Shown here: positions 43,486 through 64,000 of the stretch, piece after piece
Position numbering within the stretch: position 1 is the first letter of the stretch
How the letters are laid out: each line of letters starts with the position of its first letter
NCBI RefSeq assembly: GCF_023517795.1
Contig: NZ_CP082928.1
Coordinates: forward strand, 4,960,001 to 5,024,000
Length of the DNA stretch: 64,000 bases
Origin: Pseudomonas fulva
GTDB lineage: Bacteria > Pseudomonadota > Gammaproteobacteria > Pseudomonadales > Pseudomonadaceae
Direction: 5' to 3'
Made by a program: the position numbers and the translations under genes
The notes under the pieces: model-generated
What the model was told of the DNA's origin: nothing
The model's database searches: none
The model's input: only the letters and a program-made list of their open reading frames with translations

Positions 43486-43503
43486 TTGGCATGGATTCTG
43501 TTG
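43486..43503 (+). promoter_or_regulatory. Candidate sigma-54 promoter of the first sulfur operon
   Basis: TTGGCATGGATTCTGTT: GG at 43488-43489, ten bases, then GT at 43500-43501. The consensus is GG-N10-GC, so the -12 half has one mismatch; the -24 half is strong. The coding start is 59 bases downstream with AGGAG at 43551. Confidence 0.5.
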
Positions 43504-43559
43504 GTAAGTGATTAAACAGTGCCACGACAAGGTGCTGGCCTTATCGACCAGGAGTCCCC

Positions 43560-44969
43560 ATGTCACGTGAAATTCGTTTGAACGCCTTCGAGATGAACTG
43601 TGTCGGCCATCAGTCACCTGGCCTGTGGCGGCACCCCAAGGATCGCGCCTGGCAGTACAAGGATCTGGAGTACTGGACGGATCTGGCCAGGTTGCTGGAG
43701 CGCGGCAAGTTCGACGGCATCTTCATCGCCGACGTGATCGGTATCTACGACGTGCTGGGCGGCAATGGCGACGCGGCCATCCGCCAGGCGACCCAGGTTC
43801 CGGTCAACGATCCGCTGGCGCTGATCACGCCAATGGCCCTGGTTACCGAACACCTTGGTTTCGGCCTGACTGCTTCGCTGACCTTCGAGCATCCGTATCC
43901 CTTCGCCCGGCGCCTGTCGACCCTGGACCACCTAACCAAGGGGCGCATCGGCTGGAACATCGTCACGTCCTACCTCGACAGCGGTGCGCGCAACCTCGGG
44001 CAGAAGGCCCTGAGCGATCACGATGCGCGCTACGACTACGCCGATGAATACCTTGAAGTGCTCTACAAGCTGTTCGAAGGCAGCTGGGAGGAGAGGGCGG
44101 TGGTGCGTGATCGTGAACGCGGGATCTTCACCGACCCGAGCAAGGTTCATGAAATCCGTCACCAGGGAGAGCATTTCCAGGTGCCTGGCATCCACCTCTG
44201 TGAACCGTCGCCGCAGCGCACGCCGGTGCTCTACCAGGCTGGCGCATCGAGCCGCGGCAAGGACTTCGCGGCCGGGCACGCCGAGTGCGTGTTCGTCGCC
44301 GCACCGTCCAAGGCGATCCTGAAGAAAACCGTGGCAGACATCCGCCGTCGGGCTGCCGAAGCCGGGCGCGATCCACGCAAGGTGCTGATCTTCAACCTGC
44401 AGACGGTGATCGTCGACGAGACCGACGCCAAAGCCCAGGCCAAGTGGCAGGAGCTGAAATCCTATAGCAGCTACGAGGGGGCGCTGGCGCTGATTTCCGG
44501 CTGGACCGGTATCGACTTTGGCCAGTACCAGCCGGATCAGGTGCTCAAGCACATCCACACCAACGCCATTCAATCGGCAGTAGAAACCTTCTCTACCGCC
44601 GACCCGGACAAGCAGTGGACGGTCCAGGAACTGGCTGACTGGGTTGGCATTGGCGGCTTCGGTCCGCTGATCGTCGGCAGTGCGCAGACCGTTGCCGACG
44701 AGCTGCAGGCCTGGGTCGAGGAGACCGACGTGGACGGCTTCAACCTGGCATATGCCCTGGCCCACGAAACCTTCCGTGATGTGGTCGAGCTGCTGGTGCC
44801 CGAGTTGCAGGCACGCGGCGTGTACAAGACCGATTATCGCTCCGGAACCCTGCGCGAGAAATTGTTCGGTGATGGCCCGCGACTGCCCGCCAACCATCCG
44901 GGCGCCGGTTATCGCGACCTCAGCCAGCAGCGTAAAGCTGCCAGTGTCAGCCTGGCCGAGCCGGCCTGA
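43560..44969 (+). CDS. LLM-class flavin-dependent monooxygenase (NtaA/SnaA/DszA family)
   Basis: A 469-residue FMNH2-dependent monooxygenase of the NtaA/SnaA/DszA branch: IRLNAFEMNCVGHQSPGLWRHP, ARLLERGKFDGIFIADVIGIYD, LVTEHLGFGLTASLTFEHPYPFARRLSTLDHLTKGRIGWNIVTSYLDSGARNLG and RTPVLYQAGASSRGKDFAAGHAECVFV are characteristic. Members open sulfones, sulfonates or amine rings using FMNH2 from a separate reductase. It is the first gene of the operon, 20 bases before the ligase-like gene. The precise substrate is unknown; sulfones or other organosulfur compounds are inferred from the neighbouring SfnG, SfnB and MsuE genes. Confidence 0.88.
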   Translation: MSREIRLNAFEMNCVGHQSPGLWRHPKDRAWQYKDLEYWTDLARLLERGKFDGIFIADVIGIYDVLGGNGDAAIRQATQVPVNDPLALITPMALVTEHLGFGLTASLTFEHPYPFARRLSTLDHLTKGRIGWNIVTSYLDSGARNLGQKALSDHDARYDYADEYLEVLYKLFEGSWEERAVVRDRERGIFTDPSKVHEIRHQGEHFQVPGIHLCEPSPQRTPVLYQAGASSRGKDFAAGHAECVFVAAPSKAILKKTVADIRRRAAEAGRDPRKVLIFNLQTVIVDETDAKAQAKWQELKSYSSYEGALALISGWTGIDFGQYQPDQVLKHIHTNAIQSAVETFSTADPDKQWTVQELADWVGIGGFGPLIVGSAQTVADELQAWVEETDVDGFNLAYALAHETFRDVVELLVPELQARGVYKTDYRSGTLREKLFGDGPRLPANHPGAGYRDLSQQRKAASVSLAEPA

Positions 44970-44989
44970 CTCGGCAGAGGAGCCGTCGC

Positions 44990-45949
44990 ATGAGCATTCA
45001 TGAGTTCTACCCGCCATTGCCTGAGGTGGTGGCCGACAGCGCACTGACGGCGCTGCAACGTTGGGCTCGGGAGCGGCCGACGCAGATCGCTCTGCGCCAC
45101 CGCCGCCTTGGCGCCTGGAAGGCCTGGCGCTGGATCGATGTGCAGCGCGAGGTCGAGCGAGTCGCCGATGGCTTGCGCCAGCAGGGTTTCACCCCTGGGG
45201 CGCGACTGGCGTTGAGCGGTGCCTTCGAGCCGAGCCTGCTGATTCTGGCGTTGGCTGCCCAGCAGCTTGGTGGCCAGAATCTGGTGATCGGCCGCGATAG
45301 TCGTGGCGATGAGCTGCAACGGCTGCTGCGCCATGGGCGTCCGGCGTTTGCCTTCGTCCAGCGCCGTGAGAACGTGTCGCACTGGTTAGGCAGCGGCCTT
45401 GTCGAGTATTGGCCGCTGCGCCTGTTTTCCGCCCAGGCCAATGCCGTGAGCAATGGCTTGTGGCAGGTGCAGCCACTGTCGACGCTGTTTGTCGGCGAGG
45501 CGCCGGTAGCGCAGCGTCAGGGTTGGGCGCAGGTGGCCGAGGATGATGTGCTATGGGTCGATGAGGGCACCGAATGGCGTGAGGGATTGAGTTATTTGCT
45601 GAGTCGCTGGCTGGAACATGGTGAGGGTCTGGCCTTCCCGGAAACCAGCGAGTCAGCCGGTCGCGATCGCCGCGAAATTGCCCCGACCGGATTGTTGCTG
45701 TCTGCCGCGCGGGTCGAGGCGCTGGCTGGCGAGATCGAGGCCCGTCTACCCCCAGCGGGCAGTTGGCGGCGGCGCCTGTGTGACTGGACGCTGGCGAATC
45801 CGCACCAAGGCATGCGCCGCTGGCTGAAGGAGCGGGTGCGGCGCTTGCTCGGTTTCCACCGGCTGCGCCGGATCGAGGTGCCGGGTGCGCCTGCCGGTGC
45901 AGTGCTACGAGGCCCGTGGCTGGATGAATATCTGGAGCGGGCGGCATGA
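44990..45949 (+). CDS. Shortened acyl-adenylate-ligase-like protein without the ATP-binding core
   Basis: A 319-residue protein that follows the N-terminal half of the long-chain acyl-CoA synthetases that accompany branched-chain-type ABC operons. Recognisable parts: RPTQIALRHRRLGAWKAWRWIDVQREVERVADGLRQQGFTPGARLAL, LALAAQQLGGQ, GEGLAFPETSESAGRDRREIAPTGLLLSAARVEALAGEIEARL (the enzyme's LREIxPTxxxxxPRxWE region) and RRWLKERVRRLLGFHRLRRIE. The [ST]SGTTGxPKG ATP-binding motif is absent (position taken by VLWVDEGTEWREG), and nothing corresponds to the C-terminal half. It is uninterrupted and overlaps the next gene by four bases (ATGA, 45946-45949). It cannot be an ordinary ligase; a scaffold or regulatory role is possible. 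Confidence 0.72.
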   Translation: MSIHEFYPPLPEVVADSALTALQRWARERPTQIALRHRRLGAWKAWRWIDVQREVERVADGLRQQGFTPGARLALSGAFEPSLLILALAAQQLGGQNLVIGRDSRGDELQRLLRHGRPAFAFVQRRENVSHWLGSGLVEYWPLRLFSAQANAVSNGLWQVQPLSTLFVGEAPVAQRQGWAQVAEDDVLWVDEGTEWREGLSYLLSRWLEHGEGLAFPETSESAGRDRREIAPTGLLLSAARVEALAGEIEARLPPAGSWRRRLCDWTLANPHQGMRRWLKERVRRLLGFHRLRRIEVPGAPAGAVLRGPWLDEYLERAA

Positions 45950-46716
45950 GCGCCTTGCTGGAGATACGCAACGTGTCACTGTCGTTCAAGGGCGTGAAGG
46001 CGATTTCCGATCTGTCGTTCAGTGTCAGGCGTGGTGAGATTTGCGCCCTGATCGGCCCGAACGGGGCTGGCAAGAGCTCGCTGCTGAATATCCTCAATGG
46101 GGTCTACCAGGCCGATGCCGGGCAGCTGTACTTTGCCGCCAAACCGTTGCGCCGGCCACACCCGCTGAAGGCTGCTCGGCTCGGGATTGGCCGCACCTTC
46201 CAGAACAATGCCCTGTTCAAGAAGATGAGTGTGCTGGACAACCTGCTGACGGGGCTGTCGCGCTTCCAGCGCAGCTTCTTTCTCGAGCAGGCGCTGGGCC
46301 TGCCACGTGCCCGGCGTGAAGCGCGCGCTTTCGCTGAACGCGCCGAGAGCGTGCTCGAGTTCCTCGAGCTGCAGCCCTGGCGCGACGTTGCCGTGGGCAG
46401 CCTGGCCTACGGCCTGCAAAAGCGCGTGGAGCTGGGCCGCGCACTGATCGCGCAGCCGACTCTGTTGCTGCTCGATGAGCCGATAGCGGGGATGAACGCC
46501 GAAGAGAAACGGGACATGAGCCGCTTCATCGCGGACATCAACCGCGACCTCGGCACCACGGTGATTCTCATCGAACACGACATTCAGGTGGTCATGGGGT
46601 TGTCCGGCCACGTGGTGGTGCTGGACTACGGGCGCAAGGTCGGTGATGGCACACCGGCCGAGGTTCAGGTCAATCCCGATGTGATCGCCGCTTATCTGGG
46701 GACGCCAAACGGATGA
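45946..46716 (+). CDS. Branched-chain-type ABC transporter ATP-binding protein (LivG-like)
   Basis: A 256-residue ATPase: Walker A GPNGAGKSS (about 36-44), a LivG-type signature SLAYGLQKRVELGRAL, Walker B LLLLDEPIAGM, and H-loop IEHDIQVVM. LivG-like NBDs power uptake through LivHM permeases. It overlaps both neighbours by four bases (ATGA at 45946 and at 46713-46716), so it is in a tight operon. The cargo is inferred from the operon to be an organosulfur compound or its acid, not necessarily an amino acid. Confidence 0.94.
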   Translation: MSALLEIRNVSLSFKGVKAISDLSFSVRRGEICALIGPNGAGKSSLLNILNGVYQADAGQLYFAAKPLRRPHPLKAARLGIGRTFQNNALFKKMSVLDNLLTGLSRFQRSFFLEQALGLPRARREARAFAERAESVLEFLELQPWRDVAVGSLAYGLQKRVELGRALIAQPTLLLLDEPIAGMNAEEKRDMSRFIADINRDLGTTVILIEHDIQVVMGLSGHVVVLDYGRKVGDGTPAEVQVNPDVIAAYLGTPNG

Positions 46717-47594
46717 TCTTTTTTCTGGAAACCCTGATCGGCGGGTTGCTCGCCGGCACTCTGTATTCGCTGGTGGCCATCGGCTTCGTGCTGATCTACA
46801 AGGCCAGCGGTGTGTTCAATTTCGCCCAGGGCGCGATGCTGCTGTTTGCCGCGCTGACTTTCGTCAGCCTGCACGAGCAGGGGCTGCCTTTCGCCTTGGC
46901 GCAGGCTGTGACGGTGCTGGTGATGATCATCGGCGCGCTGTTGATCGAGCGGCTGGTGCTGCGGCCGCTGGTCAATCGCTCGCAGATCACCCTGTTCATG
47001 GCCACCCTCGGCCTGTCGTTCATCATCGAGGGCCTGGCCCAGGGGCTGATGGGCGCCCAGGTGCGTGCGCTGGATCTGGGTATCGAGGACATTCCGCTGT
47101 TCGTTGGCGAGATCATGATCAGCCAGTTCGACCTGGTCGCCGCGAGTGTTTCGGCCCTGCTGGTGGTGGTGTTGGCTTTGCTGTTCAACCAGACTCGTAT
47201 CGGCGTGGCGCTGCGGGCGGTGGCCGACGATACCCGTGCCGCGCTGTCGCTGGGCATCAACCTGAATCGCATCTGGCAAATCGTCTGGGCCGTAGCGGGA
47301 GTGGTCGGTCTGGTTGCCGGGCTGCTCTGGGGCGCGCGCCAGGGCGTGCAGTTCTCGCTCTCGCTGGTGGTGCTCAAGGCGCTGCCGGTGCTGATCATCG
47401 GCGGCTTCACCTCGATTGGCGGGGCCATCGTCGGCGGGCTGATCGTCGGCGCAGCGGAAAACCTTGCCGAGGCCTACATCGGCCCGCTGATCGGTGGCGG
47501 CATCACGCCCTGGTTCGCCTATTTCCTCGCCCTGATCTTCCTCTACATTCGTCCGACCGGCCTGTTTGGCGACCGGGCCATCGAACGGGTATGA
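46713..47594 (+). CDS. Branched-chain-type ABC transporter permease (LivH-like)
   Basis: A 293-residue inner-membrane protein with about eight hydrophobic helices: GLLAGTLYSLVAIGFVLIYKASGVFNFAQGAMLLFAALTFV is the LivH signature opening. The EAA-like loop is in GVALRAVADDTRAALSLGINLNRIWQIVWAVAGV. Start ATG overlaps the LivG-like stop. It forms the membrane channel with the following LivM-like protein. Confidence 0.95.
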   Translation: MIFFLETLIGGLLAGTLYSLVAIGFVLIYKASGVFNFAQGAMLLFAALTFVSLHEQGLPFALAQAVTVLVMIIGALLIERLVLRPLVNRSQITLFMATLGLSFIIEGLAQGLMGAQVRALDLGIEDIPLFVGEIMISQFDLVAASVSALLVVVLALLFNQTRIGVALRAVADDTRAALSLGINLNRIWQIVWAVAGVVGLVAGLLWGARQGVQFSLSLVVLKALPVLIIGGFTSIGGAIVGGLIVGAAENLAEAYIGPLIGGGITPWFAYFLALIFLYIRPTGLFGDRAIERV

Positions 47595-47598
47595 CGCC

Positions 47599-48663
47599 AT
47601 GATCGCTTCCGTTTCACGCCTGCGCACCCGCTTCGACGAAGCGCCTCTGATCCTGGTACGCCATCGCTGGCCGCTGGGGTTGTGGCTGTTGCTGCTGCTG
47701 GCTTTCATCGCGCTGCCCTTGCTGGGCAACGACTATTGGCTCAACGCGATCCTGATTCCCTTCCTGGTGTTGTCGCTGGCCGGGCTGGGGCTGAACCTGC
47801 TGACCGGCTACACCGGGCAGACCTCGGTCGGTGCCGCCGGCTTCATGGCGGTGGGGGCTTTCGCGACCTACGGTCTGCTGCTGCGTGTGCCTGGGCTGCC
47901 TTTGCCGCTGGCGCTGATCGGCGGCGGGCTGATCGCCGGCCTGGTCGGCTTGCTGTTCGGCATTCCCAGTTCGCGGATCAAGGGTTTCTACCTGATGGTC
48001 ACCACGCTGGCTGCGCAGTTCTTTCTGGAGTGGGTGTTCGCCAAGTTTCCCTGGTTCTACAACTACGCCTCGTCCGGAACCATCAGTGCGCCGCGCCTGG
48101 AATTGTTCGGCTACAGCCTGGCCACGCCGGTCGGCCGTTACCTGCTGACCCTGAGTTGCGTGGTGCTGCTGACCTGGGTGGCGGTCAACCTGGTGCGTAG
48201 TCAGGTCGGCCGCAACTGGATGGCGATCCGCGACATGGATACCGCCGCGGCAGTGATCGGCATTCCGGTGGATCGCTACAAGCGCCTGGCCTTCGCGGTC
48301 AGCTCCTTCTACCTGGGCATCGCCGGGGCGCTTTGGGCCTTCGCCTACCTGGGCACCGCCAGCGCCGGGAGTTTCGATATCAACCGGTCGTTCCAGATCC
48401 TTTTCATCATCATCATCGGTGGCATGGGCAGCATCGCCGGCAACTTCATCGGCGCCGCCTTCATCAGCTTTACACCGATCTTGCTCAACCACGCCGGGCA
48501 ATGGCTGTTCGACGGCAGCGTCGATGCCGGGCAATTGCAGAACCTGCAGAAGATCCTCTTCGGCAGCCTGATCATCTGGTTTCTGATCAAGGAGCCGGAA
48601 GGGCTGGTACGCCTGCTCGGCGACCTGCGCGAACGCATCAGGGTGTGGCCGCTGAGATTCTGA
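47599..48663 (+). CDS. Branched-chain-type ABC transporter permease (LivM-like)
   Basis: A 354-residue permease with about ten hydrophobic helices. LivM hallmarks: LAGLGLNLLTGYTGQTSVGAAGFMAVGAF, a GRNWMAIRDMDTAAAVIGIPVDRYKRLAFAVSSFYLGIAGALWAF loop, and IIIIGGMGSIAGNFIGAAFI. ATG at 47599, four bases after the LivH-like stop; an in-frame start at 47566 would lie inside the preceding gene. A charged N-terminal cytoplasmic segment (about 30 residues) precedes the first helix. Confidence 0.95.
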   Translation: MIASVSRLRTRFDEAPLILVRHRWPLGLWLLLLLAFIALPLLGNDYWLNAILIPFLVLSLAGLGLNLLTGYTGQTSVGAAGFMAVGAFATYGLLLRVPGLPLPLALIGGGLIAGLVGLLFGIPSSRIKGFYLMVTTLAAQFFLEWVFAKFPWFYNYASSGTISAPRLELFGYSLATPVGRYLLTLSCVVLLTWVAVNLVRSQVGRNWMAIRDMDTAAAVIGIPVDRYKRLAFAVSSFYLGIAGALWAFAYLGTASAGSFDINRSFQILFIIIIGGMGSIAGNFIGAAFISFTPILLNHAGQWLFDGSVDAGQLQNLQKILFGSLIIWFLIKEPEGLVRLLGDLRERIRVWPLRF

Positions 48664-48745
48664 GCCCCACGATTTGAACGCTACCACGAACCTTGACCCG
48701 ACCCCGGGAAAGGAGGTTTCCAGCACTGCACAAGAAGTACACATC

Positions 48746-50086
48746 ATGCGCAAAACCTTGCATCGCCACCTGCTCGCCAGCCTTTTCGTGCTCGGCGCTC
48801 AGGTCTTGTCACCGGCCATCGCCCAGGCCGCCGATAACCAGCAGTTCATTCCCATGGCCACCTACCGGGTCGGCGCCTATGCGTCCAGTGGCATTCCCTG
48901 GTGGGCCGGGGAGATCGACTACTTCCGCTACATCAACGAGGTGGAAGGCGGCATCAACGGCGTCAAGCTGGTGTGGCAGGAGTGCGAGACCGAGTGGAAC
49001 GTCGATCGCATCGTCGAGTGCTATGAGCGCTACAAGGATGGCAAGGATGGCGCGCCGACGGCGTTCTTCTTCACCCACAGTACCCCAGGCTCCTATGCGC
49101 TGATGGAGAAGGGCGCGGCCGACCGCATCCCGTTGATCGATGGCGCGGGCGGACGTACCGAGTCCACCGACGGCAGCGTGTTCCCCTATGCCTTTCCGCT
49201 GCTGTTGAACTACTACAGCCAGGCCTCGGTGGGCATCAACTACATTGCCGAGCGCGAGGGTGGTTTCGACCAGCTCAAGGGCAAGAAGATCGTCACCGTC
49301 TACCACGACTCGGCCTACGGTCGCGAAACCCAGGCGCCGATGAAGCTGCTCGCGGAAAAGTACGGATTCGAGAACATCCAGATCCCGGTGGCCGATCCGG
49401 GCAACGAGCAGTCCGCGCAATGGCGCCAGGTGCGGCAGATCAAGCCGGACTGGGTGTTCCTGCGTACCTGGGGCGTGTCCACTCCGGTGGGCATCAAGAC
49501 CGCTGCGCGCTTTGGCATTGCGGTGGATCGGATCATCGGCGACGTCTGGGCCGGTTCAGAGGCTGACGTGATCCCTGCTGGCACGGCGGCCAAGGGTTAC
49601 CAGGCCCTGGCGCCGTTCCCCGGTGGCGACGGTTTCGAGATTCACCAGCGCCTGCGCCAGCATATCCTCGATGCCGGCAAGAGCGACCTCAAGGACAAGC
49701 GCTACTTCGGCAAGGTGTACTACAACATCGGCCTGATCAACGCCGCGATTGCCGTCGAGGCACTGCGCACTGCCCAGGGCAAATTTGGTAACCGCCCGCT
49801 CACCGGCGAGGAAGCACGCTGGGGCTTCGAGCATCTGGACATCGATGCAGCGCGTCTCAAGGCCAGCGGTTTCGAAGGGCTGTTGCCACCGCTGAAACTG
49901 TCCTGCTCTGACCACGAGGGCGGCGGTGCTGCCCGTGTGCAGCAGTGGGATGGCGATAAGTGGGTGCTGGTGACCGACTGGGTCCAGGCCGACCGCGCCA
50001 CCCTGCGTCCGCTGATCGAAACCAAGTCCGCTGCCTACGCCAAGGAAAAAGGCATCACCCCACGCGACTGCGCCAACGAGCAATAA
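48746..50086 (+). CDS. ABC transporter substrate-binding protein, copy A (LivJ-like)
   Basis: A 446-residue periplasmic binding protein of the branched-chain-amino-acid type. Signal peptide MRKTLHRHLLASLFVLGAQVLSPAIAQA. Long identical stretches with copy B (50153-51487), for example QECETEW, YHDSAYGRETQ, YGFENIQIPVADPGNE and LKLSCSDHEGGGAA, show a tandem duplication. Two positions around the binding cleft differ (for example copy A FFFTHSTPGSYALME against copy B VYQPNGAPAAYALAD), so ligand specificity may have diverged. The ribosome site is weak at the ATG 48746; the frame stays open to 48674. Confidence 0.92.
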   Translation: MRKTLHRHLLASLFVLGAQVLSPAIAQAADNQQFIPMATYRVGAYASSGIPWWAGEIDYFRYINEVEGGINGVKLVWQECETEWNVDRIVECYERYKDGKDGAPTAFFFTHSTPGSYALMEKGAADRIPLIDGAGGRTESTDGSVFPYAFPLLLNYYSQASVGINYIAEREGGFDQLKGKKIVTVYHDSAYGRETQAPMKLLAEKYGFENIQIPVADPGNEQSAQWRQVRQIKPDWVFLRTWGVSTPVGIKTAARFGIAVDRIIGDVWAGSEADVIPAGTAAKGYQALAPFPGGDGFEIHQRLRQHILDAGKSDLKDKRYFGKVYYNIGLINAAIAVEALRTAQGKFGNRPLTGEEARWGFEHLDIDAARLKASGFEGLLPPLKLSCSDHEGGGAARVQQWDGDKWVLVTDWVQADRATLRPLIETKSAAYAKEKGITPRDCANEQ

Positions 50087-50152
50087 GACCCTATCGACAA
50101 CCAGCGCCTGGCCGCCGTTGTGCAGATCGGGCGCGTGAGTAGAGAAAACAGC

Positions 50153-51487
50153 ATGAATGCAACCCTGAAACGTAGCTTCGCCGCCTTCGGCCTGGCGCTC
50201 GCAACCTGCGCCGCGCTGCCGGTGACGGTCCAGGCGGCCAATGAACAGTTCTTCCCGCTGGCCACCTACCGGGTCGGTGCCTATGCCTCCAGCGGCATTC
50301 CAGTGTGGGCCGGGATGATCGACTACCTGCGCTACATCAACGAGGTGGAAGGTGGCATCAATGGCGTCAAGCTGGTCTGGCAGGAGTGCGAGACCGAGTG
50401 GACGGCGGAGAAGGGCATCGAGTGCTACGAGCGCTTCAAGAATGGTCTGGGTGGCGCACCGGTGGCGGTCTACCAGCCCAATGGCGCGCCGGCTGCCTAT
50501 GCCCTGGCGGACAAGGCTGCGGCCGACAAGATCCCGCTGATCACCCTCGGCTACGGCCGCACCGAAGCCACCGACGGCAGCGTGTTCCCCTACAACTTCC
50601 CGGTGATGCTGACGTTCTACAGCGAGGCTTCGGCGTTCATCAATTACGTGGCCGAGCGCGAAGGCGGGCTGGACAAGCTCAAGGGCAAGAAAATCGCCAC
50701 CGTCTACCACGACTCGGCCTACGGTCGGGAAACACAGGGGCCGTTGAAGCTGCTGGCAGAAAAGTACGGTTTCGAGAACATCCAGATTCCCGTCGCCGAT
50801 CCGGGTAATGAACAGGCTTCGCAATGGCGCCAGGTACGGCAGCTCCAGCCGGACTGGATATTCCTGCGCACCTGGGGCGTGTCTACTCCGGTGGCGATCA
50901 AGACCGCCGCACGTTTCGGCTTTCCGGTCGATCGCATCATCGGCGACATCTGGGCCAGCTCCAACGAAGACGTGCTGCCGGCCGGCGAGGCGGGTAAGGG
51001 CTACCTGGCGCTGACGCCCTATCCGGGCGGTGCCGACTTCGACATTCACCAACGCATCAAGGAACACATCCTCGACAAGGGCAAGAGCGACCTCAAGGAT
51101 CCGAAGAGTTTCGGCAGCGTGTACTACAACTCCGGTCTGGTGAACGCCGCCATCGCCGTCGAAGCGATTCGCGCCGGGCAGAAGAAATTTGGCAACCGGC
51201 CACTCAACGGCGAGGAAGGTAGCTGGGGCCTCGAGCACCTCGATCTCGACGATGCGCGCCTCAAGGAGATCGGTTTCCTTGGCCTGATGCAGCCACTGAA
51301 GCTTTCGTGCAGCGACCACGAGGGTGGCGGGGCCGCCAAGGTTCAGCAGTGGGATGGGCAGCAGTGGAAGCTGATCACCGACTGGGTTCAGGCCGACCGT
51401 GTCACCCTGCGTCCGTTGATCGACGCCAAGTCGGCCGAGTACGCGAAAGAGAAGGGTGTGACGCCTCGCGATTGCAATGCGCAATAG
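50153..51487 (+). CDS. ABC transporter substrate-binding protein, copy B (LivJ-like)
   Basis: A 444-residue paralogue of copy A, 66 bases after it, with its own signal peptide (MNATLKRSFAAFGLALATCAALPVTVQA). Same fold and length, identical in many blocks. Differences are concentrated in the region around residues 110-140 and in the hinge-proximal segment QASQWRQVRQLQPDWIFLR. Both proteins can presumably deliver to the same LivHM-like channel, giving the importer two ligand ranges. Its end is 79 bases before the LivF-like gene. Confidence 0.92.
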   Translation: MNATLKRSFAAFGLALATCAALPVTVQAANEQFFPLATYRVGAYASSGIPVWAGMIDYLRYINEVEGGINGVKLVWQECETEWTAEKGIECYERFKNGLGGAPVAVYQPNGAPAAYALADKAAADKIPLITLGYGRTEATDGSVFPYNFPVMLTFYSEASAFINYVAEREGGLDKLKGKKIATVYHDSAYGRETQGPLKLLAEKYGFENIQIPVADPGNEQASQWRQVRQLQPDWIFLRTWGVSTPVAIKTAARFGFPVDRIIGDIWASSNEDVLPAGEAGKGYLALTPYPGGADFDIHQRIKEHILDKGKSDLKDPKSFGSVYYNSGLVNAAIAVEAIRAGQKKFGNRPLNGEEGSWGLEHLDLDDARLKEIGFLGLMQPLKLSCSDHEGGGAAKVQQWDGQQWKLITDWVQADRVTLRPLIDAKSAEYAKEKGVTPRDCNAQ

Positions 51488-51566
51488 CCGCCTGCCGCGA
51501 ACAGGCAGCGGGGTTCAAACGTGCGACATACAACCGGGCGCGAGTGTGCCCACGGAGGATACAGAT

Positions 51567-52549: not shown

Positions 52550-52714
52550 CTTGGCTGATCGGTTCAAGCCCAGACCCGGTTTTTCCGCCCTGAAGAAACT
52601 GCTGTGGCACCGGCAACAGCAGTTGCACAGATTGCCCTGAAGGCACATTGCCTTGATGTTGAATTGTTAATGCAAGTAATTGATTAATATTGATTTAATG
52701 CCTTGGCATGGTTG

Positions 52715-52731
52715 TTGGCATAGCGGTTGTA
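52715..52731 (+). promoter_or_regulatory. Candidate sigma-54 promoter of the porin gene
   Basis: TTGGCATAGCGGTTGTA: GG at 52717-52718, ten bases, then GT at 52729-52730. One mismatch to GG-N10-GC. A second, poorer -24-like TTGGCATG begins 12 bases earlier. The porin start is about 47 bases downstream. Confidence 0.55.
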
Positions 52732-55521: not shown

Positions 55522-55530
55522 GGTCACGTC

Positions 55531-55917: not shown

Positions 55918-56882
55918 GTCGAATCCTGACGTTGCTCACCGCTCTGCTGCTGGCACTGGCGGGCGGCCTGGCGCAAGCCGAGGAGGGCGATGCCGTGCCG
56001 TCGCTGGCCGGCAAGCGCATTGCCGTGAGCATGACCGGCACCAGTCATTACTTCGATATCAAGGCGTTCCAGGCGCAGGTCGATGAGATCAAGCGCCTGG
56101 GCGGCACGCCGATCACCCTCGACGCCGGACGCAACGACCGCAACCTGGTCAGGCAACTGCAGACGGTGGTGACACAGAAGCCCGATGCGGTGATCCAGAC
56201 CCTCGGCACCCTGAGCGTTATCGACCCCTGGCTCAAACGCATCCAGGTGGCGGGCATCCCGCTGTTCACCATCGATGCACCGTCGCAGTACAGCCTCAAC
56301 AACACCACGTCGGACAACGTCGCGGCCGGCCGAGCGCTGGCCGAACAACTGGTGCGCGACACCGGCGGCAAGGGCCGCATCCTGGTGTTCAACGGCTTCT
56401 ACGGGGTGCCGGTCTGCGCGATCCGCTATGACGAGTTGAAGAAGGTGCTGGCCGCGCATCCGCAGCTGCAGATCATCGAGCCGGAGCTGCGCGACGTGAT
56501 CCCCAACACCGTGCAGGATGCGCGCAGCCAGATCGCCGCGCTTCTGAACAAGTATCCCAAGGGCGAGATCGCCGCCATCTGGTCGGCCTGGGACATTCCT
56601 CAGCTCGGCGCCAGCCAGGCGCTGATCGACGCCGGGCGCACCGAGATCCGCACCTACGGTGTGGACGGCACGCCTGAAGTGCTGGAGCTGATCGCCCGTA
56701 GCGATTCGCCCATCGGCGCGGTGGTGGCGCAGCAGCCTGACCTGATCGGCCGTACCGCGGTGCGCAACGTGGCCCGTTACCTGGCCGGACAGCGTGATCT
56801 GCCGAAGGAGAGCCATGTCGCCACACTGTTGACGACCCGCGACAACCTGGATCAGGTCAAGAACCTGCGAGGTGATCAATGA
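55914..56882 (+). CDS. Sugar-type ABC transporter substrate-binding protein, copy A
   Basis: A 322-residue periplasmic binding protein of the ribose/LacI-like fold, with a Sec signal peptide (MSRILTLLTALLLALAGGLAQA). Blocks: KRIAVSMTGTSHYFDIKAFQAQVDEIKRLGGTPITLDAGRND, QKPDAVIQTLGTLSVIDPWLKRI, LVFNGFYGVPVCAIRYDELKKVL and DVIPNTVQDARSQIAALLNKYPKGEIAAIWSAWD. It overlaps copy B by four bases (ATGA, 56879-56882). The ligand is unknown; the operon suggests a sulfur-containing or sulfated compound rather than ribose. Confidence 0.9.
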   Translation: MSRILTLLTALLLALAGGLAQAEEGDAVPSLAGKRIAVSMTGTSHYFDIKAFQAQVDEIKRLGGTPITLDAGRNDRNLVRQLQTVVTQKPDAVIQTLGTLSVIDPWLKRIQVAGIPLFTIDAPSQYSLNNTTSDNVAAGRALAEQLVRDTGGKGRILVFNGFYGVPVCAIRYDELKKVLAAHPQLQIIEPELRDVIPNTVQDARSQIAALLNKYPKGEIAAIWSAWDIPQLGASQALIDAGRTEIRTYGVDGTPEVLELIARSDSPIGAVVAQQPDLIGRTAVRNVARYLAGQRDLPKESHVATLLTTRDNLDQVKNLRGDQ

Positions 56883-57907
56883 GCGACCACCCATTCGCCG
56901 GCATTTCCCGGCGCCACCTGCTCGGCGCTTGTTCGGCAATGCTCGCTCTCGGGCTTGCCGCACCGTTAAGCCGCGCTGTGGCGAACGACGCCGATAGCGG
57001 CGCCGAGGCGAGCGCTACAGTGCCTTCGCTGAACGGCAAGCGCGTCGCCATCAGCACCGTGGGCACCAGTATCTATTTCGACAGCCGGGCCTTCAAGGCG
57101 CAGGTCGAGGAGGTGCAACGCCTCGGTGGCACGCCGATCACCCTGGACGCCGGGCGCAACGACAAGGCCATGGTGACCCAGTTGCAGAACCTGGTGACCC
57201 AGAAGCCCGATGCGGTGATTCATAACCTCGGTACACTGAGCATCATCGACCCATGGTTCAAGCGCATCAGCGCCGCCGGCATCCCGCTGTTCACCATCGA
57301 GGTGCCATCGCAGTACGCGATCAATACGATTTCCGCCGACAACTGGAGCACGGGATTGCTACTGGCCAAGCAGTTGGTGGCCGATCTGCGCGGCAAGGGC
57401 AGGGTGCTGCTGTTCAATGGTTTTTATGGCGTACCGAGCTGCGGCATTCGTTACGATCAGTTGAAGCTGGTTAGCAAATTCTACCCGCAAATCGAATTCA
57501 TCCAGCCGGAGCTGCACGACGTGATTCCCAACACCGTGCAGGACGCCCGCAGCCAGGTTGCCGCCTTGCTCAACAAGTACCCCAAGGGTGAACTCGACGC
57601 GATCTGGGCGGCCTGGGATCTGCCGCAGCTCGGGGCCAGCCAGGCGTTGATCGAAGCCGGGCGCAATGAAGTGCGCACCTATGGCGTCGACGGTACGCCC
57701 GAGGTGCTGGACCTGCTGCGCCAACCGGGTAGCCCGGTGGCGGCGGTAGTGGCGCAGCAGCCGGCGCTGATCGGCCGTACGGCGGTACACAACGTTGCCC
57801 GTTACCTGGCTGGCGAGCACGATCTGCCGCGCGAGACGTTCGTCGAAACCCTGCTGACCACGGCGGGTAACGTCGATGAAGTCCGACGTATCCGGGGCGA
57901 CGCATGA
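56879..57907 (+). CDS. Sugar-type ABC transporter substrate-binding protein, copy B (Tat-like signal)
   Basis: A 342-residue paralogue of copy A, with many identical blocks (VPSLNGKRVAIS, GGTPITLDAGRND, NTVQDARSQVAALLNKYPKG, YGVDGTPEVL). Its N-terminus differs: MSDHPFAGISRRHLLGACSAMLALGLAAPLSRA contains SRRHLLG, a twin-arginine-type motif, so it may go through the Tat pathway, while copy A has a plain Sec signal. ATGA overlaps at both ends (56879-56882 and 57904-57907) show strict co-translation. Confidence 0.9.
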   Translation: MSDHPFAGISRRHLLGACSAMLALGLAAPLSRAVANDADSGAEASATVPSLNGKRVAISTVGTSIYFDSRAFKAQVEEVQRLGGTPITLDAGRNDKAMVTQLQNLVTQKPDAVIHNLGTLSIIDPWFKRISAAGIPLFTIEVPSQYAINTISADNWSTGLLLAKQLVADLRGKGRVLLFNGFYGVPSCGIRYDQLKLVSKFYPQIEFIQPELHDVIPNTVQDARSQVAALLNKYPKGELDAIWAAWDLPQLGASQALIEAGRNEVRTYGVDGTPEVLDLLRQPGSPVAAVVAQQPALIGRTAVHNVARYLAGEHDLPRETFVETLLTTAGNVDEVRRIRGDA

Positions 57908-59442
57908 GTACGCCGGTGCTGGAGCTGCGCGGCATCGTCAAGACCTTCGGCGCCACCCGTGCACTCGATGGCGCGAGCCTGCGCGTGGCGGCGGGCAGCG
58001 TGCACGGCCTGGTAGGCGAGAACGGTGCCGGCAAGTCGACGCTGATCAAGGTGCTGGCCGGCATCCACCGCCCGGACGCCGGCAGCCTGCTGCTCGACGG
58101 CCAGCCTTACGGGCATTTCAGCCCGCGCCAGGTGGAGCGCCTGGGCATCGGCTTCATCCATCAGGAGCGCTTGTTGCCGGCCAGTTTCACGGTTGGTGAA
58201 GCTTTGTTCTTAGGCCATGAACGGCGGCGCGGCCCATTGCTCGATCGACGTAGCCAGCAGTGCGAGGCTGCACATTTGCTGGACGATTACTTCGGCCTGC
58301 GTCTGCCGGCCGATGCGCTGATCGGTGAACTGAGCAGCGCCGAGCAACAGGTGGTGCAGATCGTCCGTGCGCTGCTGGTCAAACCCCGTGTGCTGGTGTT
58401 CGACGAGCCCAGTGTGGCTCTGGTGCAGCGTGAAGTGGAGCGTTTGCTGCGGATCATCCAGCGCTTGCGCGATGATGGCCTGGCGATCATCTACATCTCT
58501 CATTACCTGCAGGAAATCGAGGCCCTGTGCGACCGCGTGACGGTGCTGCGCAACGGTCGCGATGTCGCCGAAGTCGACCCACGAAACACGTCGCTGGAGC
58601 AGATCACGCGGCTGATGGTCAACCGAGAAGTCGGCGAGCTGTATCCCAAGGTGACGGTGCCTGCCGGTGCGCCGTTGCTCGAGGTGCGCGGGTTGAGCCG
58701 GGCACGGGCTTACCTGGATGTCGACCTGCAGGTGCGCCGCGGCGAGATCGTCGGCCTCACCGGGTTGGTGGGTTCGGGCGCCAAGGAGCTGCTGCGCAGC
58801 CTGTTCGGCCTGGCACCACCGGACGTCGGCGAGGTACGCCTGGAAGGGCGTCCGTTGTCCCTGCGCAGCCCGCGCGAGGCGGTCGGCGAGGGCATCGCGC
58901 TGCTGCCCGAAGAGCGCCGCCGACAAGGCGTGGCGCTCGACCTGAGTGTGCAGGAGAACACCACCCTGGCAGCCCTGTCGCGCTTCGTCCGCGTGGGGCT
59001 GTTGTCGCCGGTGCGCGAGCGTCGTACCACCCTCGAGTTGATCGAGCGCCTGAGTATCAAGACCCCGGGCGCGCATGCTGCGGTGCGCCAGCTCAGCGGC
59101 GGCAACCAGCAGAAGGTGGCGCTGGCGAAGTGGTTCGCGCGGCGCTCCAGCCTGTACCTGCTGGACGAGCCCAGCGTTGGCATCGATGTCGGCGCCAAGG
59201 TGGAGATCTATCGGCTGATCGGCGAACTGGTGAAGGAGGGCGCCGGGGTGCTGATCCTGTCCTCCGACCTGCCGGAGTTGATCGGTCTCTGCGACCGCAT
59301 TCATGTCATGCACCGCGGCGCCATCGCCGCACGTTTCGCCGCTGGCGAAGCGAACAGTGACCGCCTGTTGGCGGTGGCCAGCGGCGCGCAACGCGCACCG
59401 CACGAGGAACGACCTTTCTATGCCTACGCCATCGCTATCTGA
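57904..59442 (+). CDS. Sugar-type ABC transporter ATP-binding protein (RbsA-like, two NBDs)
   Basis: A 512-residue protein with two fused nucleotide-binding domains, the hallmark of RbsA/MglA/XylG. First NBD: Walker A GENGAGKST (about 39-47), signature ELSSAEQQVVQIVRAL, Walker B LVFDEPSVAL. Second NBD: degenerate Walker A GLVGSGAKELL, signature LSGGNQQKVALAKWF, Walker B LLDEPSVGIDVG. The first NBD signature deviates from the usual LSxGxxQ only slightly. Overlaps copy B by four bases, and its end overlaps the permease start (59420). Confidence 0.94.
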   Translation: MSTPVLELRGIVKTFGATRALDGASLRVAAGSVHGLVGENGAGKSTLIKVLAGIHRPDAGSLLLDGQPYGHFSPRQVERLGIGFIHQERLLPASFTVGEALFLGHERRRGPLLDRRSQQCEAAHLLDDYFGLRLPADALIGELSSAEQQVVQIVRALLVKPRVLVFDEPSVALVQREVERLLRIIQRLRDDGLAIIYISHYLQEIEALCDRVTVLRNGRDVAEVDPRNTSLEQITRLMVNREVGELYPKVTVPAGAPLLEVRGLSRARAYLDVDLQVRRGEIVGLTGLVGSGAKELLRSLFGLAPPDVGEVRLEGRPLSLRSPREAVGEGIALLPEERRRQGVALDLSVQENTTLAALSRFVRVGLLSPVRERRTTLELIERLSIKTPGAHAAVRQLSGGNQQKVALAKWFARRSSLYLLDEPSVGIDVGAKVEIYRLIGELVKEGAGVLILSSDLPELIGLCDRIHVMHRGAIAARFAAGEANSDRLLAVASGAQRAPHEERPFYAYAIAI

Positions 59443-60403
59443 GGCCTTGCGCCCGCAGTTCGTGCAATTCTTAAGGCGGCGCGGGGCGCTGTTGGCCTTT
59501 GCCGCGATCCTGCTGGCCTTCGCCTTCAGCGCGCCGAACTTCCTCACCCCGGGCAACCTGGTCAATGTCCTCGCCCAGTCGGCGATCCTTGGCATCCTTG
59601 CCTTCGGCCTGACCACGGTGATCATCGGCGGTGGCTCGAACGTGGTGTCCGGTGGGCTCGATCTGTCGCTGGCGGCCAATCTCGGCTTGTCAGCGGCGGT
59701 CTATGCCAGCCTGAACAATGCCGGTGTCGGTGATTTCGCCAGTATTGCCGCGACCCTTGGCACCGGCCTGGCCATCGGCACGCTGAATGCGCTGGTGGTG
59801 GTCGGTTTCCGTTTGCCGCCGCTGCTGGCGACCCTGGCGACCTTGAACCTGGTGGCCGGGCTGGAACTGGTGCTGACCGAGAACACCGTGCTGCCCAGCA
59901 CTTCGCCGTTGCTGGAATGGCTGGCCTTCGGCAGCTGGCTCGGCGTGCCAGCCTTGGCCTGGGTGCTGGCGGCGGTCGGCGGCGTGCTGATTCTGTTGAT
60001 CCAGCACACGCCCTTCGGCCTGCGCCTGTACGCCGTCGGCGAGTACCCGGAAGCGGCCAATGCCGCCGGCCTGTCGGTACGCGGCTACGTGTTCGCCAGC
60101 TACCTGATCAGTGGCCTGTGCGGCAGTCTGGCGGCGTTCTGCTCGGCGGCCTGGTTCAGCGGCAGCACCACCGGCTCCGGCGAGATGCTGCTATCGGTGG
60201 TGGCCATCGCGTTTCTCGGGGTGATCTTCTCCCGGCGCCTGCAGCCAAGCATCGGCGGCGCACTGCTGGCCACGTTGCTGGTCGGGGTGCTGATCAACGG
60301 CTTCCAGCTTCTGAATATTTCCAGCTTCTGGGTCGACGGCGTGCAGGGCGTGCTGATCCTGCTGGTGGTCGCCCTGTCCGGTTTGCGCAACAAGGAGGCC
60401 TGA
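59420..60403 (+). CDS. Sugar-type ABC transporter permease 1 (RbsC-like)
   Basis: A 327-residue inner-membrane permease with about ten hydrophobic helices: FSAPNFLTPGNLVNVLAQSAILGILAFGLTTVIIGGGSNVVSGGLDLSLAANLGLSAAVYA is the RbsC-type opening, and YAVGEYPEAANAAGLSVRGYVFASYLISGLCGSLAA is the coupling loop. ATG at 59420 lies inside the end of the ATPase gene (23-base overlap); the upstream frame to 59303 is inside it. It pairs with permease 2 as a heterodimer. No clear substrate motif. Confidence 0.93.
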   Translation: MPTPSLSEALRPQFVQFLRRRGALLAFAAILLAFAFSAPNFLTPGNLVNVLAQSAILGILAFGLTTVIIGGGSNVVSGGLDLSLAANLGLSAAVYASLNNAGVGDFASIAATLGTGLAIGTLNALVVVGFRLPPLLATLATLNLVAGLELVLTENTVLPSTSPLLEWLAFGSWLGVPALAWVLAAVGGVLILLIQHTPFGLRLYAVGEYPEAANAAGLSVRGYVFASYLISGLCGSLAAFCSAAWFSGSTTGSGEMLLSVVAIAFLGVIFSRRLQPSIGGALLATLLVGVLINGFQLLNISSFWVDGVQGVLILLVVALSGLRNKEA

Positions 60404-60404
60404 G

Positions 60405-61391
60405 ATGTCCGATTCGTTATCCGCACCGCAACCCGCTCGCCTGAGCGGGCTCTCGCGCCAGGCGCTATTGCGCCTGGTCATGCCGACGCTGTTCGCTGGC
60501 GTGCTGCTGTTCTTCGCCCTCGAGGCGCCTGGCTTTCTTACCGCCGGCAACCTGTCCAGCCTGCTGCTGAACAACTTTGTGCTGCTGGCCATCGTCGCCA
60601 TCGGCATGACCTACGCCATCGCCGCTGGCGGCATCGACCTGTCGGTAGGCACGGCGCTGGATTTTTCGGCGCTGGCCTTCGTCTTGCTGCTCAATGCCGG
60701 TTTCGGGCTGTATGTGGCGATTCCCGGAGCGCTGTTGGCTGGCAGCCTGGCCGGGCTGTTCAATGCCGGGCTGATCGCCGGGCTGGGCATTTCACCGTTC
60801 CTTGCCACCCTCGGCACACTGTTCATCGGCAGCAGCGTGCAAAAGCTGCTCTCCGATGGTGGGCAGCCGATCTACCTGGAGGCGCAGGTGCGCAGTGGCC
60901 TGGCCAGCGAGCGCCTGCTTGGCGTGCCGCTACCCATGCTGTTGGTGGTACTGCTGGCGTTGGTGTACGGCCTGTTGCTGGCGCGTGGGCGCTTTGGCCG
61001 GGAGATGCTTGCCGTTGGCAGCCAACCGCTGGTAGCGCGTTATTCGGGCCTGGCGCAGCGGCGTATCGCGGCTTTGGTGTTCATCGCCAGTGCCTTTGCC
61101 TGCGCGCTGGCCGGCATCCTGCTCCCGGCCACGGTGAACGCCTACGTGCCGATGTCTGGCAACGCTTTCCTGATGAATGCCATCGGTGCGGTGTTCATTG
61201 GCGCCACGCTGAGCCGACACAACCGGGTCAACGTGCCCGGTACGTTGCTTGGCGTGCTGTTTCTCAACGTCACCGCCAACGGCCTGCTGCTGATCGGCTG
61301 GAATTTCTTCTGGCAGCAGGTGGCCACTGGCGTTCTGATTCTGGCGGTTCTGCTGTTCAGCTTTGCCAGTCGGCGGCTGGCAAGCAACTAA
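60405..61391 (+). CDS. Sugar-type ABC transporter permease 2 (RbsC-like)
   Basis: A 328-residue permease similar to permease 1: FFALEAPGFLTAGNLSSLLLNNFVLLAIVAIGMTYAIAAGGIDLSVGTALDFSALAF and MLAVGSQPLVARYSGLAQRRIAALVFIASAFACALAGILLPATVNAYVP. Starts one base after the permease 1 stop, with GGAGG before it. Having two separate RbsC-like permeases in one operon instead of one homodimeric RbsC is less common. Last gene of this operon. Confidence 0.93.
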   Translation: MSDSLSAPQPARLSGLSRQALLRLVMPTLFAGVLLFFALEAPGFLTAGNLSSLLLNNFVLLAIVAIGMTYAIAAGGIDLSVGTALDFSALAFVLLLNAGFGLYVAIPGALLAGSLAGLFNAGLIAGLGISPFLATLGTLFIGSSVQKLLSDGGQPIYLEAQVRSGLASERLLGVPLPMLLVVLLALVYGLLLARGRFGREMLAVGSQPLVARYSGLAQRRIAALVFIASAFACALAGILLPATVNAYVPMSGNAFLMNAIGAVFIGATLSRHNRVNVPGTLLGVLFLNVTANGLLLIGWNFFWQQVATGVLILAVLLFSFASRRLASN

Positions 61392-61614: not shown

Positions 61615-62853
61615 TCAGGCCTGCTTGGCACCGCCGCCGATCTGCCAGACGTAGGGCGGCTCGGTGCCGTTCACATGCCAGTCGCCGATGATGCGTTCCT
61701 TGTAGATCACCGGGTTGTGCGAGGCGGCGGTACGGGCGTTGCGCCAGTGGCGATCGAGCTGTTTGACGGTGCTGGTGCCGGAAGCGCCGAGCGTGTTGAA
61801 CAGGTCGCTGGTGGCACGCAGCACCAGTTCCACGGCGGCCACCTGGGCCTGGGCTGATTCCAGTTCGGCGGCGCTGTTGGCCTGCTGCTCGGCCGTTTCA
61901 TCGCGGTTAAAGCGTGCCAGGTAGGCCCGTTGAGCCGCTTCGGTGGCGCGCAGGGTGCCCGCTTCGGCGGCGTAGACCAGGCCACTGGCCTTGCCGATCA
62001 CCTGCAGCACTTGTGGGTCCTGACTCACGGCCGGGGCGTTGCCATGGCTGAACACCCGCGTGCGCTCGCTGGTTTCCTGGCTGAAGTCGCGCACGGCGGC
62101 GCGGCCTGAGCCAACGATGACGGCCAGCAGAACCAGTTGGTAGAACGCCGTCTGGTATTTGAAGCGGGTGGCGAAATCGATGATGTTCTCTTCCTCGACC
62201 ACCGCGTTCTCGAACACCGAGGTACCGCTGCCAGTCGTGCGTTGGCCGAAACCGTCCCAGTCGTCGCTCTGGGTGATGCCGGGCTGCTGGGTGCGGATTG
62301 CCGCGATCACGTCGGCGCCGGTGTCATCGCGACGGGCGAAGAGGTCGATCCAGTCGGAGAAGAGGCTGCCGGTGCTGTAGTACTTGGTGCCGTTGACCAC
62401 CCACTGCTCGCCCTGGCGTGAGACTCGGGTGATGACGTCGCCGATCTTCACCGCGCCAACCTCCGTCCAGGCGCAGCCGACCAGGTCACCCTCTGTGAAG
62501 CGTTTGAACCACACATCCTGCGGCGCGCTGGCATGGGCATTGAGGCGATCCTCAACGAAGGCGAAGTGCCCGCGCAGCGCCTGCGGCAGGTTGGAGTCGG
62601 CCTCGGCCAGTTCGATCAGCAGTTGGAACAGTTGCGGCAGTGATGCGCCCGCGCCACCGTGTTCGACCGGCACGCGCACGGCACCGAAGCCGGCCTCCTT
62701 CAGCCAGTGGATGGGTTCGAACGGCAGGCTGCGGGTGCGCTCACGTTCGACACTGCCTTCGGCGATGCGCGCAAAGATCGGCCGGAAGCGGGCGGCAAGG
62801 GATTCATAGTCGGTGCCGGTAGACAGGTGTGGCACATGGGCTTGAGCGGTCAT
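61615..62853 (-). CDS. Acyl-CoA-dehydrogenase-fold flavoprotein (second SfnB/DszC-like)
   Basis: A 412-residue protein of the same fold family as SfnB: YESLAARFRPIFARIAEGSVERERTRSLPFEPIHWLKEAGFGAVRVPVEHGGAGASLPQLFQLLIELAEADSNLPQALRGHFAFVED, KIGDVITRVSRQGEQWVVNGTKYYSTGSLFSDWIDLFARRD, DWDGFGQRTTGSGTSVFENAVV and WRNARTAASHNPVIYKERIIGDWHVNGTEPP. It is more like the DszC-type (SnaB, IboC) monooxygenases than SfnB. GAGGAGA before ATG 62853. Divergent from msuE-sfnG, with a sigma-54-like element on this strand 45-60 bases upstream. Confidence 0.88.
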   Translation of the reverse strand: MTAQAHVPHLSTGTDYESLAARFRPIFARIAEGSVERERTRSLPFEPIHWLKEAGFGAVRVPVEHGGAGASLPQLFQLLIELAEADSNLPQALRGHFAFVEDRLNAHASAPQDVWFKRFTEGDLVGCAWTEVGAVKIGDVITRVSRQGEQWVVNGTKYYSTGSLFSDWIDLFARRDDTGADVIAAIRTQQPGITQSDDWDGFGQRTTGSGTSVFENAVVEEENIIDFATRFKYQTAFYQLVLLAVIVGSGRAAVRDFSQETSERTRVFSHGNAPAVSQDPQVLQVIGKASGLVYAAEAGTLRATEAAQRAYLARFNRDETAEQQANSAAELESAQAQVAAVELVLRATSDLFNTLGASGTSTVKQLDRHWRNARTAASHNPVIYKERIIGDWHVNGTEPPYVWQIGGGAKQA

Positions 62854-62896
62854 CGCAGTTCTCCTCGATTGATGCGATTGCTGACGGCTGATCCTT

Positions 62897-62913
62897 CGCA
62901 AACTCCATGCCCT
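62897..62913 (-). promoter_or_regulatory. Candidate sigma-54 promoter of the second SfnB-like gene
   Basis: On the minus strand GGGCATGGAGTTTGC: GG (62911-62910), ten bases, GC (62899-62898), an exact GG-N10-GC with -12 TTTGC. The start codon is about 45 bases downstream. Confidence 0.6.
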
Positions 62914-63130: not shown

Positions 63131-63147
63131 TTGGCACGGTTGCTGCT
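63131..63147 (+). promoter_or_regulatory. Candidate sigma-54 promoter of msuE-sfnG
   Basis: TTGGCACGGTTGCTGCT: GG at 63133-63134, ten bases, GC at 63145-63146, the best match in the window to the TGGCACG-N4-TTGCW consensus. It is followed 42 bases later by the ribosome site AGGAGG. Confidence 0.72.
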
Positions 63148-63189
63148 CAAGCGCTCTTGAACAATGCCCGAGGGGCAGGAGGGATGAGC

Positions 63190-63750
63190 ATGAGCGCAAG
63201 CGTTATCAAGGTTGTGGTGGTGTCGGGCAGTCTGCGTACGCCATCGCGTACTCATGGCCTGCTGGAGGCGCTGGTGCAAAGGCTGCAGGCAAGGCTGCCG
63301 AACCTGCACGTGCATTGGGTTCGTGTCGCCGAGCTGTCCAACACGCTGTCCGGCTCGCTTGAGCGCGACACGGCCTCTGCCGATCTGCGACCTCACCTGC
63401 ACGCCATCGAGCAGGCTGACTTGCTGCTGGTTGGCAGCCCGGTCTATCGCGCGTCCTACACGGGGTTGTTCAAGCACCTGTTCGATCTGGTCGACCATCA
63501 GTCGCTCAAGGGTGTGCCCGTGGTACTGGCCGCTACCGGTGGCAGCGAACGCCATGCACTGATGATCGATCACCAGTTGCGCCCGCTGTTCGCCTTCTTC
63601 CAGGCCCACACCCTGCCGTATGGACTGTATGCCAGCGTCGAGGCCTTCGATGACTACCGCCTCGCCGACGCAGCGCAGTTCGAACGGATCGAGCGGGTGC
63701 TCGACACCGTTGCGGCGTTCTTTCATATCCCGGTCGCCAGTGCGGCCTGA
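63190..63750 (+). CDS. msuE: NADH-dependent FMN reductase (MsuE/SfnF-like)
   Basis: A 186-residue flavodoxin-fold reductase: [28 protein letters not shown] (FMN phosphate loop), [73 protein letters not shown], very like MsuE. It makes FMNH2 for the LLM monooxygenases SfnG and, by inference, the DszA-like gene product. In P. putida the equivalent gene next to sfnG is called sfnF. AGGAGG at 63177-63182 is one base from ATG 63184 but seven from ATG 63190, so I choose 63190. The sfnG gene follows after 26 bases. Confidence 0.92.
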
Positions 63751-63776
63751 CCTTCCGAGCTACAGGAGCCATCGTC

Positions 63777-64000
63777 ATGAGCCAACCGATCAAATTCGCC
63801 TACTGGGTACCCAACGTCAGCGGCGGCCTCGTCGTCAGCAAGATCGAGCAGCGCACCAGTTGGGATATCGATTACAACCGCAAGCTGGCGCAGATCGCCG
63901 AGCGTTCCGGGTTCGAATACGCGCTGTCGCAGATTCGTTTCACGGCTGGTTATGGCGCTGACAACCAGCATGAGTCGGTGACCATCAGCCACGCCCTGCT
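63777..64000 (+). CDS. sfnG: Dimethylsulfone monooxygenase SfnG (3' end outside window)
   Basis: The first 74 residues of an FMNH2-dependent LLM monooxygenase that cleaves dimethylsulfone to methanesulfinate. The opening MSQPIKFAYWVPNVSGGLVVSKIEQRTSWDIDYNRKLAQIAERSGFEYALSQIRFTAGYGADNQHESVTISHALL is characteristic of SfnG. An AGGAG sits before the ATG at 63777. It is in one transcription unit with msuE. The rest of the gene and possible msuC/msuD-type partners lie beyond the right edge. Confidence 0.95.
   Translation, partial: MSQPIKFAYWVPNVSGGLVVSKIEQRTSWDIDYNRKLAQIAERSGFEYALSQIRFTAGYGADNQHESVTISHAL

Follow-up and report, generated by a model that had tools for sequence, protein, structure and literature searches.

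A putative sulfate-starvation organosulfur island in Pseudomonas fulva, with LIV-type importers probably rebuilt from ligase operons and two enzyme pieces that may serve without catalysis

To our knowledge, the import of organosulfur compounds in soil and plant Pseudomonas by routes other than Ssu and Tau is poorly described, and the SsuABC and TauABC sulfonate importers belong to a different class of ATP-binding cassette (ABC) importer from the LIV and ribose types. Here we describe a locus of Pseudomonas fulva in which both of these types stand among sulfur enzymes. It lies in a stretch of 64,000 nucleotides (the window; 4960001-5024000 of a 5.44-Mb genome in one contig), whose proteins have their nearest relatives in Pseudomonas, and each of its LIV operons opens with a gene for a truncated acyl-CoA ligase, here called the half ligase. 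Among described systems, the sfn genes of Pseudomonas putida include ABC transporter genes (PMC8234197). In Acinetobacter baylyi, three group D enzymes together with one MsuE are reported to oxidise dimethyl sulfide (DMS) in vitro, and group C enzymes gave no detectable DMS oxidation (PMC13352529); because of this result, a single MsuE feeding several enzymes that use reduced flavin mononucleotide (FMNH2) can be regarded as an established pattern.

We consider it probable that the locus is a sulfate-starvation organosulfur island in which LIV importers were rebuilt from ligase operons, and in which the half ligase and a stand-alone SfnB-type C-terminal domain (ACADc) have been kept as non-catalytic proteins. 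For the half ligase we computed loss of motifs, a predicted fold, kinship with the ligases of LIV operons elsewhere, purifying selection and a fixed position. In both LIV operons the "AMP-binding protein" before livG amounts to no more than the N-terminal portion of an acyl-CoA ligase, 319 or 376 residues long. A motif scan with two queries, covering 241 sequences among the best-listed relatives, found the A3 phosphate-binding loop (the ATP loop) in 0/121 and 0/120 half ligases, with a strict and a wider pattern alike, and the A5 motif in 0/241; A7, A8 and A10 are absent from all 18 half ligases aligned. The predicted model folds as an ANL N-terminal adenylation domain. Measured against a catalytic ANL acyl-CoA ligase, the half ligase has this N-terminal fold and lacks A3, A5 and the C-terminal part (A7-A10). 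Retention of the fold in the model might mean that the former acyl pocket still accepts an organosulfur acid or its product and that the protein serves as a carrier or sensor, not as a docking subunit, but the region from A5 onward forms part of the ANL pocket and has been lost, and we think such a role quite unlikely.

The half ligase also keeps its position. A scan of named genomes found 117 places encoding a relative, from which the best 80 loci were kept for counts. livG follows directly in 75/80, and a gene for an LLM flavin monooxygenase lies within 1.5 kb upstream in 73/80 (four others are at contig edges, three have none). Because of this linkage on both sides the LIV importer, judged by its gene neighbourhood, is part of the organosulfur system, and Pseudomonas relatives retain the LLM-LIV core. 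When the window is compared with four relatives, two artefact rows being dropped, the ratio of nonsynonymous to synonymous substitution rates (dN/dS) is 0.12-0.20 for the half ligase versus 0.04-0.13 for its neighbours, and 12 half-ligase sequences reaching down to 46% identity share 76 invariant columns.

Where might such a protein come from? The LIV binding protein family was matched at E 1e-60 or better in 64/398 phylum genomes, and 20 of these places were fetched, the 19 best-scoring outside the genus and one lower. In eleven of the 20 (L156, L158-L167) livG is immediately preceded by a full-length ligase, whose open frame runs to 660-741 residues and contains A3, A5 and [TS]GD; a script detected these motifs in 10, and they were recognised by eye in L164. 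A further six carry no ligase but sfnG or an LLM gene before livG, with a gap of 51-298 bases; one (L149, outside the family to which Pseudomonas belongs) carries the longer half ligase; and two (L153, L168) have neither ligase nor sfnG/LLM gene there. A tree of LivG, LivH and LivM from 43 operons sets 12 (the 11 with a ligase and L168) apart from 31 of organosulfur type, with which L153 groups though no sulfur enzyme was found at that locus. Profiles of both half-ligase families score all 10 LIV-operon ligases given to them above six reported non-LIV ligases; the L164 ligase was left out of the targets. We infer that operons combining the same importer with a full-length acyl-CoA ligase either gave rise to the LIV importers or go back to a common ancestor with them. 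On the simplest reading, a carboxylate importer-ligase operon would have turned into an organosulfur importer as monooxygenases replaced the ligase, which shrank or vanished, and the half ligase would be a retained relic of carboxylate uptake.

It is also possible, although in our view rather unlikely, that the half ligase and ACADc are slow-decaying remnants, or spacers for translational coupling, whose proteins do little. One might then expect neither a dN/dS well under 1 nor so many invariant columns, nor the confident, compact predicted models obtained for both proteins, nor the presence of ACADc behind sfnB in 72/72 loci with a plus-strand sfnB although the genes downstream vary. Several observations nevertheless weigh against our preferred reading, and most would suit decay. 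The half ligase diverges faster than its neighbours (45-85% identity, versus 86-98% for livH) and occurs in 34/149 evenly drawn genomes of the genus, own genome included. One otherwise conserved copy (L082, 10001-10960) has a single in-frame stop, possibly early decay; another is split (G748), and the match was confined to the N-terminal part in G716, G727 and G762, which makes 4/34 genomes. In 5/80 loci the importer has been deleted and the half ligase remains, which fits slow decay too, and outside the genus sulfur-type LIV operons persist with no ligase at all. Because the tree is rooted at its midpoint, the direction of change is only inferred. The ATGA overlaps of half ligase with livG and of ACADc with the ribose-type operon in the window are what coupling spacers would show. 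Even so, the shortened pieces have been retained mostly intact, which suggests new non-catalytic jobs in organosulfur uptake. As a tentative proposal, which we would put below even chances, the half ligase is a dedicated subunit of the LIV importer that docks LivG/LivF and couples uptake to LLM/SfnG, and ACADc makes SfnB a hetero-oligomer.

ACADc consists of the C-terminal domain only; the N-terminal and middle domains of a group D monooxygenase are not present. The HTLH segment (WRNxRTHTLHDP) near the C-terminus, which has an active-site role in DszC, is missing in ACADc and present in SfnB. One could argue that the locus is ordinary, the known sfn cluster of P. putida on a larger scale and without novelty, since a published figure legend already describes sfn genes of P. 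putida KT2440. But that legend passage says nothing further on these genes, and in the open-licence literature searched we found no description of the dead-ligase state or its origin and no paper that calls the half ligase non-catalytic or describes a loose SfnB-type domain. We regard the ordinary-locus view as unlikely.

The features of the window are collected in Table 1. An initial annotation, made from the sequence, had listed organosulfur genes here largely correctly, the enzyme, importer and porin families being borne out by family profile matches, and had recognised a real locus. It passed over two genes, the half ligase and the 128-residue ACADc gene, and drew the island too short, as it runs beyond the window end. 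Both importers named there exist, and a second LIV operon past the window makes three in all. The sfnG it reported is present (TIGR04021, 632 versus a cut-off of 383), with only its first 224 bases within the window.

Table 1. Features of the putative organosulfur island within the window (window positions)
Feature	Position	Strand	Evidence
Weak σ54-like site before LLM gene, TGGCATG-N4-CTGT, under 95% null	43487..43501	+	
LLM flavin monooxygenase, DmoA/LadA-like	43560..44969	+	TIGR03860; solved-structure matches
Half acyl-CoA ligase (pseudo-ligase, LIV-A), without A3 and A5-A10 motifs	44990..45949	+	
livG-type ATPase; start overlaps pseudo-ligase stop (ATGA)	45946..46716	+	
livH-type permease	46713..47594	+	
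livM-type permease; start codon uncertain	47566..48663	+	
LIV binding protein 1; start codon uncertain	48674..50086	+	PF13458; 713 bits to 4ru0
LIV binding protein 2, 72% identical to LIV binding protein 1	50120..51487	+	PF13458
livF-type ATPase	51477..52346	+	
σ54-like site before oprD, TGGCATG-N4-TTGG	52704..52718	+	
OprD-family porin	52778..54130	+	PF03573, 488 bits
σ54-like site before sfnB, TGGTACG-N4-GTGC	54237..54251	+	
SfnB, group D flavin monooxygenase fold	54289..55521	+	TIGR04022, 617 bits; DszC-type structures
Stand-alone SfnB-type C-terminal four-helix domain (ACADc), 128 residues	55531..55917	+	
Ribose-type binding protein 1; start overlaps ACADc stop (ATGA)	55914..56882	+	PF13407
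Ribose-type binding protein 2, 66% identical to ribose-type binding protein 1	56879..57907	+	PF13407
RbsA-type double ATPase	57904..59442	+	
RbsC-type permease 1; start probably lies further downstream	59303..60403	+	
RbsC-type permease 2	60405..61391	+	
SfnB/DszC-like flavoprotein, under SfnB cut-off	61615..62901	-	
σ54-like site before msuE, TGGCACG-N4-CTGC	63132..63146	+	
MsuE FMN reductase	63157..63750	+	TIGR03566, 243 bits
sfnG start, cut by window edge, continuing in L006	63777..64000	+	TIGR04021

The LIV operon of the window (LIV-A, 44990-52346) has the duplicated PF13458 binding proteins that had been noticed in it. It is complete as a LIV importer, with two ATPases, two permeases and a binding protein, and no LIV-A subunit reaches a LivG, LivH, LivM or LivF family cut-off. 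Tandem LIV binding proteins like these occur in 12/80 loci and a single one in 62, six being without livM. Beyond the window, the sfnG-linked second operon (LIV-B, L006:4881-10178) encodes the 376-residue half AMP-binding protein, livG, livH, livM and one binding protein. No livF match was found beside it in L006 or L024, and a relative's locus, L023, has one; LIV-B might make use of the livF of LIV-A. After LIV-B, on the minus strand, follow an amidohydrolase, an SsuD/MsuD enzyme, a σ54 activator, labelled sfnR from its domain and position, and an acyl-CoA-dehydrogenase-fold flavoprotein that is msuC-like by position only. Five loci (L043, L044, L052, L067, L071) have no LIV importer after the half ligase; three of them hold livF-like fragments, and the sulfur enzymes are kept. 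A terminator-like inverted repeat was spotted by eye between livF and oprD (window 52500-52550).

The LLM enzyme had been described as DszA/NtaA-type. It does fall in the NtaA/DmoA family, passing the subfamily cut-off (TIGR03860, 577 bits versus 280), and its solved-structure matches place DmoA (6ak1, 553 bits) and LadA (3b9n, 518) closer than DszA (256). SfnB clears its cut-off of 431 with DszC-type enzymes as nearest solved structures; the second flavoprotein that had been paired with it as SfnB/DszC-like shares the group D family and fails that cut-off at 280. MsuE passes at a threshold of 213, and curated NCBIfam cut-offs are passed also by SfnG and by the SsuD/MsuD enzyme.

Candidate σ54 sites were scored by a weighted consensus only, the 95% null serving as threshold. 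Sigma-54-type promoters had been suggested earlier; the sites before msuE (15.5), sfnB (11.4) and oprD (10.4) exceed the null, the one before the LLM gene (6.8 versus 9.0) and the highest-scoring candidate upstream of the SfnB-like gene (6.7) do not, none was found before the 128-residue gene in the window, and the plain count of such sites in the window equals chance (40 versus 39.7 expected). Across loci, the region upstream of sfnB is above the null in 67/73 (L044 counted twice), that of oprD in 7/8, of the LLM gene where it comes first in 6/13 and of the SfnB-like gene in 4/8, with livH (1/74) and the half ligase (17/80) as controls. Because the promoter-like sites are conserved, the enzyme families fit and a σ54 activator lies nearby, the predictions support control of the island by a putative σ54/SfnR-type system. 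A separate string, TGGGAGG-N4-TTGC, lies between the LLM gene and the half ligase with a σ54-like score and is common to relatives such as L059, L064 and L068.

The ribose-type importer is complete as well (55914-61391; binding protein, double ATPase, permeases), with the two PF13407 binding proteins reported for it. The whole block had been taken for one coordinated system, with a search of other genomes for the same gene order as a check. The order LLM-half ligase-livG does recur, and the LLM-LIV core fits that picture; the ribose-type importer is seldom alongside and its link is less firm. Its genes are near the sulfur core in 4/80 LIV-A loci (L032, L038, L057, L087), a count limited by the ends of the stretches, and among 14 further ribose-type loci SfnB/LLM neighbours are found in four (L171, L174, Shinella, Phyllobacterium) and none in 10. 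Its binding protein occurs in 11/398 phylum-sample genomes, own genome included, and is common on Rhizobium plasmids (90/111 matching records). That the importer carries a sugar or polyol and merely adjoins sulfur genes is a real possibility, a little short of an even chance: among the closest binding proteins with solved structures, many bear ribose- or sugar-binding names, two Rhizobium loci adjoin glycerol genes and one Pseudomonas locus adjoins lipopolysaccharide-core genes. But in the window the operon follows sfnB-ACADc with an overlapping start, and the loci with sulfur neighbours named above also speak for a sulfur link. We read the ribose-type importer as a variable neighbour of the LLM-LIV core, for which a sulfur role here is plausible, not general, and in many hosts it may transport a sugar or polyol. 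At the Pseudomonas locus just mentioned (L170) the importer sits within a lipopolysaccharide-core cluster, with heptosyltransferases, Kdo/WaaP kinases and a carbamoyltransferase.

How might the island work? Going by the promoter-like sites, an SfnR-type activator and sigma-54 would switch on sfnB, msuE and oprD. A candidate organosulfur compound would enter through the porin and the LIV importers, and, judging from the families, oxidation of sulfur and cleavage of C-S bonds would fall to SfnB, the DmoA/LadA-like LLM enzyme, SfnG and the SsuD/MsuD enzyme, driven by FMNH2 made by MsuE. On the switch to organosulfur these monooxygenases would have become the consumers of the imported compound, and the ligase would have been cut down to its non-catalytic N-terminal fold in Pseudomonas and lost in the sfnG/LLM-LIV operons elsewhere. 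The half ligase might then be a non-catalytic partner, either of the importer ATPase or of the monooxygenase, and ACADc might pair with SfnB through the four-helix bundle.

The island offers importers and enzymes that can be put to the test, and it points to a path by which a carboxylate importer-ligase operon could become an organosulfur importer. If the reading of the half ligase and ACADc as retained non-catalytic proteins is true, they would add to the pseudoenzymes two that lie in such operons under purifying selection and serve transport and flavin monooxygenases; these two are the part worth bench work.

Compared with the Pseudomonas sfn/msu loci (SfnG, MsuC, MsuD, MsuE, SfnR), the island has the same enzyme families and apparently the same σ54-type control, and differs in having three importers, an LLM enzyme resembling DmoA and LadA, half ligases in both LIV operons and the SfnB-associated C-terminal domain. 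Its importers would share with SsuABC and TauABC a role in uptake during sulfur starvation. The LLM enzyme resembles the dimethyl-sulfide monooxygenase DmoA and the alkane monooxygenase LadA over its full length, and unlike them sits beside an importer. SfnB and the SfnB-like protein have the fold and family of the group D flavin monooxygenases DszC and MsuC; the stand-alone domain lacks the WRNxRTHTLHDP region. No common origin is claimed between the half ligase and ANL-like chains in large complexes (Euglena supercomplex chain 8iuf_E1; trypanosomatid mL69). The LIV operons with a full-length ligase have the same families in the same order, ligase-livG-livH-livM-binding protein-livF, whereas in the island the ligase is down to 319/376 residues without A3/A5 and an LLM or sfnG gene stands upstream.

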